Source of the DNA: Desulfobulbaceae bacterium
Lineage (GTDB): Bacteria > Desulfobacterota > Desulfobulbia > Desulfobulbales > Desulfocapsaceae
DNA length: 64,000 nt
Assembly: GCA_011390165.1 (NCBI GenBank)
Contig: JAABSV010000014.1
Coordinates: 1 to 64,000, forward strand
Direction: 5' to 3'
Shown: one piece after another, positions 43,856 to 55,950 of the stretch
Layout: every line of letters starts with the position of its first letter
Numbering within the stretch: the first letter of the stretch is position 1
Translations under genes and position numbers: made by a program
Notes under the pieces: generated by a model
Seen by the model: the letters and a program-made list of their open reading frames with translations, nothing else
Database searches by the model: none
What the model was told of the DNA's origin: nothing

Positions 43856-44158
43856 GAAAGGGGCCTCGGCTGCCTCGCCGTTGACAAAAATTGCCCACCG
43901 TGGCAGGAAAGGGGCCGACCGGCGGAGCCGACGCTGCTCGCAGTAGGGGGCTGACGGAAAAACTGCCGGTATTGTAGCTTGAGCCGGCGGGCATGAAAAG
44001 GTAAAACAGAGTCAGAGTCGGGAAAAGGGCGTTCCATTCTCTTCTTGCCGGCAAAGAGCTGGCAGGGGATCTCCCGGCGGTGCAGGTTTGGTGGCAGTGC
44101 CACCGCCGGCCGGTTGTCACCGAAGCGCGGAGTTGGGAGAGAGGGGAAGAGGGTAGCC
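43856..44158. other. Divergent region between the TPR/Cds6 gene and the AAA-OmpA gene
   Basis: 303 bases with promoters expected in both directions. A plus-strand TTGACA lies at about 43882, but no good -10 follows at the right distance. No ORF with a credible start was found. Confidence 0.3.
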
Positions 44159-46015
44159 ATGTACAGAGAATACTACCAGCTGAACCGAAAACCATTTGCC
44201 GGAGCGTTTGCCGGAAAAGTTGTCGGACCAGGTGGCGGACCATTTGCCGGACCAGTTTCCGGACCATTTGCCGGACCATTTGTCGGGCCACTTTCCGGTG
44301 CAGTCGCCGACCGCCACGAGAATGATTTCTTCTGGCCCGGAGGCTCCTTTGCCGGGGCTCTCGCCCGCCTTCGTCAGGGGCTCGGGAACGGCGGGATCCT
44401 CCTGTTGAGCGGAGGGGCTGGTAGCGGCAAAAGCTGCCTCCTGCACCATCTTGCCGCCAACTTTCCCCGGCATCTGCTCTGGGCGATGGTGGCCGATGCC
44501 GGCCTGCCGCGGTTGGAGTTCTACCAGTCTATCGCGGCAGGGTTCGGCCTGGCCGGTGAGTGCTCGTCAAAGGTTGCCTTCTTGATCCAGTTCAGCCACT
44601 TCCTCCATCAGGCAGCGGCGGAGGGGCGGCAGGTGGTTCTCTTGGTCGACAATGGTCACCGCCTTTCCCAGGAGATGCTGGAGGAACTTCGCCTGCTGGC
44701 CGGCTTGAAAAAGGGTGACAGCCGCCTGCTCACCATTATTCTGGCCGGCCGGGAGCCGCTCGGCGCTCTCCTGGAACGGCCGAAGAATCGACAGCTCCGC
44801 CGTTCCCTGGCGGCCAACGTTTTGCTCGCCCCACTCGGGGTGGAGCAGACCGGCGACTATATCCGTCACCGGCTGGAAGTGGCCGGGGCAGTGAGCTCTC
44901 CCTTCACCACCGAGGCAGTCGCGGGCATTCACGCCTGCAGCGAGGGCAACCCCCGACGGATCAATACCCTCGGCGAGCACCTTCTCCTGGCCGGTGCCGC
45001 CGCCGGCTCACCCTGTATCGACCACGAACTGGTTGCCGATGTAGTGGGCAAGCTTGGTCTGCCCAGCAAAGCCATGCCAGAGCCCCCCCCTGTTGCCGGA
45101 GCTGACAACCGGAAAGGATTGGCCGGCAGGAGACTGCTCATATCGGCAGCCGCTTTTGCCGCCGCAAGCCTCCTCCTGGCCGGGCTGCTGCATCTCTACC
45201 TGGAACCAGGTGGTCGGATGGAGAGTCTTTCGGTCATTCCCGCTCCCACTCCCCTCCCCACCTCTCTTCCCCCTGCCCTCCTGCTCCCGCCCTCCCTTTC
45301 CCCCGGCCCCTTGCCTATTAAACGGCAAGAGGAACTGCCGTCGTCAGCACCGCCGCCCCTCGCCGAGGGGGGTGGTGGTGGAGAGAGAGGAGAGGAGTTG
45401 GCGCAGTCTCCCCCATCGGTGGCGACGGCACTGCTCCCTACCGCCCTTTCCCCCGGCCCCTTGCCTATTAAACGGCAAGAGGAGCTGCCGTCGTCAGCAC
45501 CGCCGCCCCTCGCCGAGGGGGAAGGTGCTGACGAGAAAGAAGATGAGCCGTCGCCAATACCGCTCCCCATCGTCGAGGTGGAGGGTGGTGGAGAGAGTGT
45601 GCAGATGGCGGTGGAAGAGGCTCAGGTTGAACAGGCTCCCCAGCCGCCCCTGGAGCCACGGCGATTGCGTCTTCCTCTACAGGCCAACCTTGCCCGCCTG
45701 ACCCCCGGGGCGGCAGTGGAACTGGAGCGTTTTGTCGGCAAGCTGGGCGAGTATCCCCGGGCAACCCTGTTGGTTAAAGGCTATGTCTCTTCTGACAACC
45801 ACTCGCCGGAAAATGTTGCCCTCTCCCGTCAGCGGGCGGTGGCGGTACAGCAGTTGCTGCTGGCCGCCGGGGTCGAGGAGGAAAGGGTCACCATCCAGGG
45901 GATGGGTGCCCTGGAGCCCCTGGCCAGCAATGCGACTCCGGCCGGGCGGGAGAAAAACCGCCGGGTGGAGATCGAAGTGGTGGACGACGGGACCAGGCCG
46001 CTTCAGGAGCGCTGA
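44159..46015 (+). CDS. ExeA/GspA-like AAA ATPase fused to a periplasmic OmpA domain
   Basis: 618 aa from the ATG at 44159. Residues 1-12 (M-Y-R-E-Y-Y-Q-L-N-R-K-P) match the ExeA start. Residues 11-50 are ten 4-aa Gly-Pro-Phe-Ala-type repeats encoded by 12-bp repeats, where ExeA has its T-P-D-P loop. Walker A is G-G-A-G-S-G-K-S (85-92). Walker B is L-L-V-D-N-G-H, with Asn in place of the catalytic Glu. A membrane helix lies at about 325-348. A proline-rich linker (355-500) contains two identical 24-aa units, and residues 505-608 are an OmpA/MotB-like peptidoglycan-binding domain (N-x-x-L-S-x-x-R-A, G-R-E-K-N-R-R-V-E-I). It bridges cytosol and cell wall. Its stop overlaps the convergent GT4 gene by 13 bases. 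Confidence 0.82.
   Translation: MYREYYQLNRKPFAGAFAGKVVGPGGGPFAGPVSGPFAGPFVGPLSGAVADRHENDFFWPGGSFAGALARLRQGLGNGGILLLSGGAGSGKSCLLHHLAANFPRHLLWAMVADAGLPRLEFYQSIAAGFGLAGECSSKVAFLIQFSHFLHQAAAEGRQVVLLVDNGHRLSQEMLEELRLLAGLKKGDSRLLTIILAGREPLGALLERPKNRQLRRSLAANVLLAPLGVEQTGDYIRHRLEVAGAVSSPFTTEAVAGIHACSEGNPRRINTLGEHLLLAGAAAGSPCIDHELVADVVGKLGLPSKAMPEPPPVAGADNRKGLAGRRLLISAAAFAAASLLLAGLLHLYLEPGGRMESLSVIPAPTPLPTSLPPALLLPPSLSPGPLPIKRQEELPSSAPPPLAEGGGGGERGEELAQSPPSVATALLPTALSPGPLPIKRQEELPSSAPPPLAEGEGADEKEDEPSPIPLPIVEVEGGGESVQMAVEEAQVEQAPQPPLEPRRLRLPLQANLARLTPGAAVELERFVGKLGEYPRATLLVKGYVSSDNHSPENVALSRQRAVAVQQLLLAAGVEEERVTIQGMGALEPLASNATPAGREKNRRVEIEVVDDGTRPLQER
44189..44308 (+). repeat. In-frame 12-bp tandem repeat (10 copies) in the AAA-OmpA gene
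   Basis: Degenerate units of GGACCATTTGCC type give Gly-Pro-Phe-Ala-like quartets. Units three to nine are the best conserved. The period of 12 keeps the frame when copies are gained or lost. Confidence 0.8.
45294..45371 (+). repeat. 78-bp direct repeat, copy 1, inside the linker of the AAA-OmpA gene
   Basis: Nearly identical to 45444-45521 (one A/G change seen). It contains two palindromes: CTTGCC ... GGCAAG with an 8-base loop, and CCCCTCG-C-CGAGGGG. Confidence 0.85.
45444..45521 (+). repeat. 78-bp direct repeat, copy 2
   Basis: Second copy, exactly 150 bases downstream of the first. It encodes the same 24 residues, including LPIKRQEEL and APPPLAEG. Confidence 0.85.
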
Positions 46016-53604: not shown

Positions 53605-53775
53605 TTTACAGGGGGGCGGGGCAGCAGAGCGGAAAATGGCGGAAAATACCCCAGCCGCGACGCTCAATCATCAAATAAAAAACACAAAAAAGTAACCATA
53701 ATATAAAAAATATTTCAATTATGTAACATAAAAGGAAAACGCAAGCCCATCGCGGCGCGTCCTGATACATACGAT

Positions 53776-53798
53776 AACATATTGATAAATAATATGTT
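53776..53798. promoter_or_regulatory. 8-7-8 inverted repeat upstream of the amt promoter
   Basis: AACATATT-GATAAAT-AATATGTT, perfectly symmetric half-sites, 19 bases before the sigma-54-like -24 element. It suits an activator or repressor binding site. It does not match the usual NtrC consensus (TGCACC-N5-GGTGCA). Confidence 0.55.
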
Positions 53799-53817
53799 TT
53801 TCACAATCCAGCACTCC

Positions 53818-53833
53818 TGGCACAAGAGTTGTA
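53818..53833 (+). promoter_or_regulatory. Sigma-54-like promoter of amt-glnK
   Basis: TGGCAC-N5-TTGTA fits the -24/-12 consensus TGGCAC-N5-TTGCA except for T instead of C at -12. The spacing is exact. The start site would be near 53844, directly at the edge of the 24-bp repeat array. Nitrogen-regulated amt-glnK operons commonly use sigma-54. Confidence 0.6.
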
Positions 53834-53846
53834 ATAGCAACGCAAG

Positions 53847-54062
53847 ATGTATCAAGCTGCCGGCAGGAGAATGTATCAAGCTGCCGGCAGGAGAATGTAT
53901 CAAGCTGCCGGCAGGAGAATGTATCAAGCTGCCGGCAGGAGAATGTATCAAGCTGCCGGCAGGAGAATGTATCAAGCTGCCGGCAGGAGAATGTATCAAG
54001 CTGCCGGCAGGAGAATGTATCAAGCTGCCGGCAAGAGAATGTATCAAGCTGCCGGCAGCAGA
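53847..54062 (+). repeat. Nine tandem 24-bp repeats in the amt leader
   Basis: Unit ATGTATCAAGCTGCCGGCAG plus GAGA, nine copies. Units eight and nine have single changes (AAGAGA, CAGCAGA). Each unit holds the perfect palindrome CTGCCGGCAG. The array is open in several frames because the period is a multiple of three. In the amt frame it reads Met-Tyr-Gln-Ala-Ala-Gly-Arg-Arg repeated. There are no spacers, so it is not CRISPR. Confidence 0.95.
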
Positions 54063-54143
54063 ACGGCTGTGCCGTCAAAAGTGACGAACCTAGTACCGGA
54101 ACGTGACAACATGACCACCATAAACAGATCAAGGAGGAGTATC

Positions 54144-55481
54144 GTGAACAACACAGGAAAATTCCGCAGGTATTGGGGCGTCGCCACCTTTCTTGCCGCG
54201 ACGGCTGTTGCTGTCCCGGCACTGGCCGCCGAGGGGGGGCTGGGGGACACGGTGATTCAGTTGGCCTACTCACTGGACACCTTTTACTTTCTCATGTCGG
54301 GAGCGCTGGTGATGTGGATGGCCGCCGGATTCGCCATGCTGGAAGCCGGGCTGGTGCGCGGCAAGAACACCGTCGAGATCCTTACCAAGAATGTCGCCCT
54401 CTACGCCATCGCCTGTATCATGTACATGTTGTTCGGCTACAACATCATGTACGGGGACGGGGTCAGCAGCCTCATTCCCGGCTTCAGCCTCTTCCTCGGT
54501 GCCGACCACGAGGTCGATGCGGTGCTGAAGAGCGGTGGTGAGACCTACTACTCGTCCATGGCCGACTTCTTCTTCCAGGTGGTGTTCGTCGCCACGGCGA
54601 TGTCCATCGTCTCCGGGGCGGTGGCTGAACGGATGAAACTCTGGGCCTTCCTCGCCTTTGCGGTGGTGATGACCGGTTTCATCTACCCGGTACAGGGTTT
54701 CTGGAAATGGGGCGGCGGCTTCCTGGATGGCCTTGGTTTTCTCGATTTCGCCGGTTCCGGGGTGGTCCACCTCTGTGGCGCCTCGGCCGCTCTCGCCGGG
54801 GTAATTCTCCTCGGCGCCAGGAAGGGAAAGTACGTCAATGGTCGAGTGAAGGCGATCCCCGGGGCCAATCTGCCCCTGGCCACCCTCGGGACCTTTATTC
54901 TCTGGCTCGGCTGGTTCGGCTTCAACGGCGGTTCTGAGCTGCGGATCAGCAATATCGAAGAGGCCAACGCGGTGGCCAAGATCTTTGTCAACACCAACAC
55001 CGCCGCCGCCGGTGGGCTGGTTACCGCCCTGCTCCTCTCCCGGGCCTGGTTCGGCAAGGCCGATCTCACCATGGCCCTGAACGGCGCCCTTGCCGGGCTG
55101 GTGGCGATAACCGCCGAACCCCTCACCCCCGGACCGTTGGCGGCGACTCTGATCGGGGCGGTGGGCGGCCTGATCGTTGTGGCTTCGATCATCACTATCG
55201 ACAAGGCCAAGGTCGATGACCCGGTGGGAGCGATCTCGGTACACGGTGTCTGCGGCATCTGGGGTCTGCTGGCGGTGGTGTTCACCAACCCGGAGGCCTC
55301 CCTTGTTGCCCAGTTGACCGGTATTGCGGTGATCTTTGCCTGGGTCTTCCTCACCAGTTTTGCGGTGTGGTTCGTGATCAAGGCGGTTGCCGGCATCCGG
55401 GTGAGCGAGGAGGAGGAGATGGAGGGTGTCGATGTCGCCGAGTGCGGCCTGGCCGCCTATCCGGAGTTCACCAAAGATTGA
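54144..55481 (+). CDS. amt: Ammonium transporter Amt
   Basis: 445 aa from the GTG at 54144, which follows AAGGAGG by six bases. An ATG at 54111 and the repeat-array ATGs from 53847 are in the same open frame, so a longer form is possible. A cleavable signal (A-T-F-L-A-A-T-A-V-A-V-P-A-L-A-A) precedes eleven membrane helices. Amt signatures are M-L-E-A-G-L-V-R, D-F-A-G-S-G-V-V-H (pore His), W-L-G-W-F-G-F-N-G-G-S and S-V-H-G-V-C-G-I-W-G (second His). It conducts ammonium across the inner membrane and is gated by GlnK, encoded next. Confidence 0.95.
   Translation: MNNTGKFRRYWGVATFLAATAVAVPALAAEGGLGDTVIQLAYSLDTFYFLMSGALVMWMAAGFAMLEAGLVRGKNTVEILTKNVALYAIACIMYMLFGYNIMYGDGVSSLIPGFSLFLGADHEVDAVLKSGGETYYSSMADFFFQVVFVATAMSIVSGAVAERMKLWAFLAFAVVMTGFIYPVQGFWKWGGGFLDGLGFLDFAGSGVVHLCGASAALAGVILLGARKGKYVNGRVKAIPGANLPLATLGTFILWLGWFGFNGGSELRISNIEEANAVAKIFVNTNTAAAGGLVTALLLSRAWFGKADLTMALNGALAGLVAITAEPLTPGPLAATLIGAVGGLIVVASIITIDKAKVDDPVGAISVHGVCGIWGLLAVVFTNPEASLVAQLTGIAVIFAWVFLTSFAVWFVIKAVAGIRVSEEEEMEGVDVAECGLAAYPEFTKD

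Positions 55482-55543: not shown

Positions 55544-55950
<407 letters not shown>

Follow-up and report, generated by a model that had tools for sequence, protein, structure and literature searches.

Nine 24-bp Units of a Probable Leader Minisatellite Between a Sigma-54 Type Promoter Element and amt in a Desulfobulbaceae Bacterium

Introduction

Within a window of 64,000 nucleotides, the whole stretch of Desulfobulbaceae DNA analysed here, nine near-identical 24-bp units lie between a promoter-like element of the sigma-54 (-24/-12) type and amt, the gene of an ammonium transporter. The explanation that we prefer, with a probability of about 0.72, is that the units form a recent and lineage-specific minisatellite in the leader of the amt-glnK mRNA, which is transcribed, is not translated and probably has little effect, or only a modest effect that is not under selection. 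According to this explanation the array would have arisen when replication slippage duplicated, in tandem, a single 24-bp stretch that lay where the amt-glnK leader has its 5' end. It would be transcribed from the sigma-54 type promoter, most likely without translation, while Amt would still be made from the GTG codon at position 54144. The array would lengthen the leader by approximately 190–215 bases and give it a self-pairing 5' part, situated ahead of a ribosome-binding site with unchanged predicted exposure.

The Repeat Array and the Genes Behind It

Tandem Repeats Finder places a 24-bp repeat with 9.0 copies, 98% matches and a score of 420 at 53847–54063, the runner-up in the window having a score of 120. 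The array, nine copies of ATGTATCAAGCTGCCGGCAGGAGA on the forward strand, spans 53847–54062. The nine 24-bp repeats reported between a sigma-54-like promoter and amt in a preliminary description of this DNA are hereby confirmed, but the span of 53818–54143 given there covers the promoter and the whole leader and not the array as such. Near-identical units arranged head to tail, a feature of minisatellites, are present. Units 1–7 are identical, and unit 8 (54015) and unit 9 (54039) have one base change each. Because the inner units are identical and single changes are found only in the last two copies, recent slippage fits the pattern. The palindrome CTGCCGGCAG is intact in eight of the nine units and lost in unit 8. 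AGGAGA-ATG follows seven of them, the ends of units 8 and 9 being AAGAGA-ATG and AGCAGA-ACG, respectively. Most units, but not each of them as previously described, thus carry both motifs. The remaining part of the amt leader (54063–54131) is free of repeats.

The amt gene occupies 54144–55481 of the forward strand (TIGR03644, 669 bits, cut-off 514), and it is followed on the same strand by a gene for a glnK-type P-II protein (55576–55950), which is matched by P-II models below their equivalog cut-offs. Among named Amt loci the closest carry the labels Desulfobulbaceae, Desulfogranum, Desulfocapsa and similar. The DNA upstream of 16 related amt loci was compared; in two of these relatives, L020 and L036, a P-II gene is, by eye, directly upstream of amt and the leader is not comparable, and they were left out, leaving 14.

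Promoter and Upstream Sites

The element TGGCAC-N5-TTGTA, located at 53818–53833 on the forward strand, occurs once in the window compared with 0.01 occurrences expected from shuffled sequences. Sigma-54 promoters have a TGGCAC-N5-TTGCW-like consensus, and the -12 part of the element here has GT instead of GC; TTGTAA is common to the relatives L010–L013 and L018. Transcription from sigma-54 promoters starts approximately 12 bases past the -12 element, and from this geometry we infer a start at about 53844, three bases ahead of the array. The genome also encodes RpoN (PF04552 match, E 9.2e-64). In all 14 related loci a -24/-12-like element is found 67–115 bases before the GTG, in 12 by pattern and in the two missed by the pattern (L010 and L016) by eye, as compared with 326 bases before the amt start in the window.

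Farther upstream of the element, inverted repeats near TTACA-N4-TGTAA are found in the relatives L010–L018, L035, L037, L038 and L063, and 10 of the 14 have two such repeats spaced by 31–33 bp, one near -130 and the other near -100 relative to the element. The best site beats shuffles of its own sequence (P 0.05 or less) in nine of the 14, the exceptions being L010, L013, L014, L019 and L035. In the window the inner site, TTTCAATTATGTAA (53713–53726, forward strand), has a score that none of 500 shuffles reaches, as judged with a matrix built on 23 hand-picked sites of the relatives, some of which are poor. The outer site, ACACAAAAAAGTAA (53682–53695, forward strand), lies 31 bp from the inner one and is weak, with three mismatches to TTACA-N4-TGTAA; the site pair is likewise matched by 0/500 shuffles, its score coming mostly from the inner site. 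These inverted repeats are probably an activator site. The exact 14-mer pattern of the inverted repeat occurs at a single place in the genome (C27:26944). Between the putative activator site and the promoter there is an IHF-like site, TAACATATTGATA (53775–53787, forward strand), exact to the IHF consensus YAANNNNTTGATW; among the 14 relatives an exact site is present in one (L011), and the other 13 have one or two mismatches, which is no better than chance.

A comparable spacing of element and GTG in the 14 relatives, the rpoN gene and an upstream inverted-repeat site in the position that such sites have in the relatives support the earlier notion of a sigma-54-like promoter, which we regard as credible. 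Since this predicted promoter lies just upstream, the array most likely constitutes the start of the amt-glnK leader, between the promoter and the start codon. The proposal that the repeats are part of the 5' leader is upheld to the same extent.

Structure of the Leader RNA and Effects of Copy Number

The leader RNA has a predicted folding energy of -118.4 kcal/mol, which gives a z of -5.9 when dinucleotide shuffles serve as the reference, and is predicted to pair with itself through CUGCCGGCAG and AUGUAU. The ensemble has no single dominant fold, with an optimal fold frequency of 0 and a mostly open centroid. Three units alone give a z of -2.0, and the single unit is self-complementary, with a self-duplex of -22.9 kcal/mol. 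The dinucleotide shuffles used as a control break the repetition, and shuffled units repeated nine times were as stable as the leader or more stable in 26 of 300 cases. Much of the stability would therefore come from the repetition itself, and a structure beyond repetition is only suggestive. The predicted unpaired values are 0.47 for the Shine-Dalgarno sequence and 0.24 for the GTG, and they are the same with 0, 1, 2, 3, 5, 7 and 9 units.

These predictions bear on a different explanation, according to which the number of units matters: the length of self-complementary RNA would alter the stability, early transcription or translation of the amt-glnK mRNA, and slippage would produce cells that differ in their setting. 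The self-complementarity of the unit and the z scores of the leader and of three units are in its favor, slippage is plausible since the inner units are identical, and there are precedents, in Moraxella uspA1 and uspA2 (PMC4679880, PMC7302503) and in the Helicobacter tlpB leader (PMC8295292), for an influence on expression of repeats located past the promoter and ahead of the start codon. However, the predicted exposure of the ribosome-binding site is independent of copy number, shuffled units can match the stability of the real ones, and the array was not found in relatives. We consider such an effect of copy number unlikely, and it is doubtful, too, that slippage in a 24-bp leader minisatellite serves as a dial by which a nitrogen-regulated ammonium transporter is adjusted heritably and reversibly. 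As the preliminary description had suggested, the array could possibly tune the uptake of ammonium by its copy number. The near-neutrality that we prefer to assume for the minisatellite also has its counterpoint in the location of the array, which starts almost at the predicted transcription start, and in the palindrome, which is predicted to make the leader strongly self-pairing.

Distribution of the Array and Other Minisatellites

Among 93 genomes of the family, with one genome per species, the array is present in one, its own. In 41 others there are short, chance-like matches only (E 0.0056 to 1). The best of these, in G012 (E 0.0056, 81% over approximately 41 bases), is a single short segment, located in what by eye is likely a reading frame, and not an array; the presence of the array in a sister species was consequently rejected. 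When 104 amt loci, the own one and 103 others including the 14 relatives, were scanned over approximately 600 bases ahead of their aligned portion, none of the 103 exceeded 2.4 tandem copies. In the own genome the nine units are the only ones found when up to three mismatches are allowed, the exact unit is absent from the viral contigs, and the region 53800–54160 has no match among plasmids, on which grounds a mobile or dispersed repeat was dismissed. Rfam models gave no match in the window at the gathering score, and a known structured RNA family was discarded as well.

Minisatellites are numerous in the sampled parts of this genome. Two samples totalling 793,249 bases contain 22 arrays (15 and 7) with at least 3.5 copies and a period of 7 or more; nine of them are mainly outside genes, which were roughly called as longest open frames, and four share a single long open frame of L148, so that they are not independent. 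The amt array has the top score of these samples, 420, the next being 207. For comparison, one contig from a member of the same genus (G007) is free of arrays over 340,000 bases and a member of the same family (G019) has two in 400,000 bases, one of which is CRISPR-array-like; this comparison covers two relatives, and the own contigs were an incidental pick. MutS is present in the own genome, as it is in 14 of the 15 genomes of the genus, and its loss therefore does not explain the many arrays; this cause was rejected.

A few other genes of the genome also seem to have minisatellites a short way before their starts. In L144:17505-17600 (G000:C42) a 13-bp repeat of 7.4 copies lies 51 bases before a minus-strand gene, by eye enoyl-CoA hydratase-like. 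In L149:12848-12940 (G000:C99) a 17-bp array ends approximately 14 bases before a possible ATG of a gene that is, by eye, glycosyltransferase-like. The long frame of L148 mentioned above (L148:3591-20000, G000:C42:80001-100000, minus strand) is stop-free for at least 5470 codons, until the stretch itself ends, and perhaps encodes a giant repetitive protein. Repeats of 12/24/36 bp are also found in the window itself, at 44191–44309, in an open frame of 656 amino acids (44045–46015), where they encode a Gly-Pro-rich segment near its start.

The copy number could also be partly a product of assembly, or vary in the population, which would be compatible with the other explanations. The genome is a draft assembly in 108 contigs, and 216 bp of near-identical units exceeds the length of common short reads. 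On the other hand, unique sequence borders the outermost units on either side, and units 8 and 9 each have a change of their own; we find this explanation improbable.

Protein Binding to the Repeats

Regularly spaced units might serve as a ladder for a protein, either a CsrA-like one binding RNA at CAGGAGA, or a DNA-binding one recognizing the palindrome just past the transcription start. In addition to the 24-bp spacing, the presence of CAGGAGA in seven units and of CsrA in nine of 15 genomes of the genus is consistent with this. The own genome, however, is one of the six in which no CsrA match was found. As this draft is approximately 91% complete, the absence of csrA is likely and not certain, and the idea of a CsrA target was set back by it. 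A search of the same draft for flagellin also gave no match. Furthermore, the genome has no other copy of the unit, and a period of 24 bp does not amount to an integral number of helical turns. Altogether, binding of this kind appears very unlikely.

Where Translation of Amt Starts

The GTG of amt is preceded at a distance of six bases by the Shine-Dalgarno sequence AGGAGG (54132–54137, forward strand), with similar stretches in the relatives, and it opens a hydrophobic, signal-peptide-like N terminus. In all 14 relatives a GTG is found at the same position behind a Shine-Dalgarno-like stretch of varying strength: AGGAGG or GGAGG 5–8 bases from the GTG in 12 of them (in L014, AGGAGG at 8 bases), GAGG at 7 bases in L037 and AGGAG at 9 bases in L063. 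Farther upstream, L035 has another GTG in frame. By eye, the relatives also have the hydrophobic segment after the GTG, hydropathy having been computed for the window only.

In the preliminary description a leaderless Amt extended at its N terminus by (MYQAAGRR)n was considered; internal starts within the array would give a similar product. It is correct that the nine units share the reading frame of amt. The frame is open from 53847, without a stop in any unit, into amt, and the first ATG is three bases past the predicted transcription start. Moreover, in six of the 14 relatives (L015, L018, L019, L035, L037 and L038) no stop in this frame separates the predicted start site from the GTG. Such open frames are nevertheless expected by chance. 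At least one forward frame is open in 98.9% of shuffled 24-bp units, and the real unit lacks stops in all three forward frames and in two of the reverse ones. The open frame through the array therefore says little, and some of the relatives' leaders are open in the amt frame by chance. The other eight relatives (L010–L014, L016, L017 and L063) do have an in-frame stop in this interval, that of L010 being the second codon and therefore dependent on the exact start site. As the GTG is common to all 14 and stops interrupt eight of the leaders, an upstream extension is not conserved.

The properties of the putative product do not favor it either. The ATGs of units 2–8 are only one base from AGGAG, that of unit 9 has AAGAG in this place and the first ATG has none; a further in-frame ATG in the repeat-free part of the leader, at 54111, is without a Shine-Dalgarno sequence. 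The extension would place 99 residues, 22 of them Lys or Arg and two Asp or Glu, ahead of the hydrophobic N-terminal segment, and its highest 15-residue hydropathy is 0.21 compared with 2.05 in the native N terminus of Amt. It has no NCBIfam match. Although six relatives are also open in frame, the comparative evidence on start sites led us to reject the extension, which is most likely wrong and, in our estimate, extremely improbable. Annotation by the longest open frame would begin Amt at 53847 and add the 99 residues to it.

Relation to Known Repeats and Significance

No report of tandem repeats in the leader of an ammonium transporter gene and glnK, or together with sigma-54 in Desulfobulbaceae, was found in one library of open-access papers. 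According to the cited text, uspA1 and uspA2 of Moraxella were, as of 2015, the two experimentally studied bacterial cases of repeats between promoter and start codon (PMC4679880), and the amount of uspA2 mRNA differs up to 3.37-fold with repeat number (PMC7302503). In the AGAT tract of Moraxella catarrhalis uspA2 and the G tract of uspA1, as in the array described here, the repeats are past the promoter and before an intact start codon (PMC4679880, PMC7302503). The Moraxella tracts, as these sources present them, have units of 1–4 bases, belong to surface-protein genes and show measured copy-number effects and strain variation, whereas here 24-bp units, a nitrogen-type promoter and an ammonium transporter are combined in an array known from one genome. 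The leader of Helicobacter pylori tlpB similarly contains a repeat, but in the account available this is a G-repeat targeted by the small RNA RepG (PMC8295292) and not a set of 24-bp units. The TAACTGA heptamers of Beggiatoaceae are, like the amt array, tandem repeats upstream of start codons, and they are mostly intergenic (PMC4679880). Their single 7-mer is described there as forming some 169 sets with two to six copies each, the majority near start codons, in contrast to one 24-mer at one locus.

Ordinary minisatellites (VNTR) resemble the amt array in the identical inner units, the changed end copies, the lack of counterparts in relatives and the company of other arrays in the genome. The amt array differs from them by having the top score in the window and in the 793 kb of samples, and by its position at the predicted transcription start. 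It belongs to the leader-repeat kind in its anatomy, and it might possibly be a member of the regulatory class.

A long and near-perfect array at the predicted start of an amt operon of the sigma-54 type is a clean natural construct, which lets one ask if a nutrient system is tuned by minisatellites in its leaders or just tolerates them. If the array did act as a dial, repeat-based tuning would extend from the surface proteins of host-bound bacteria to the uptake of nutrients.
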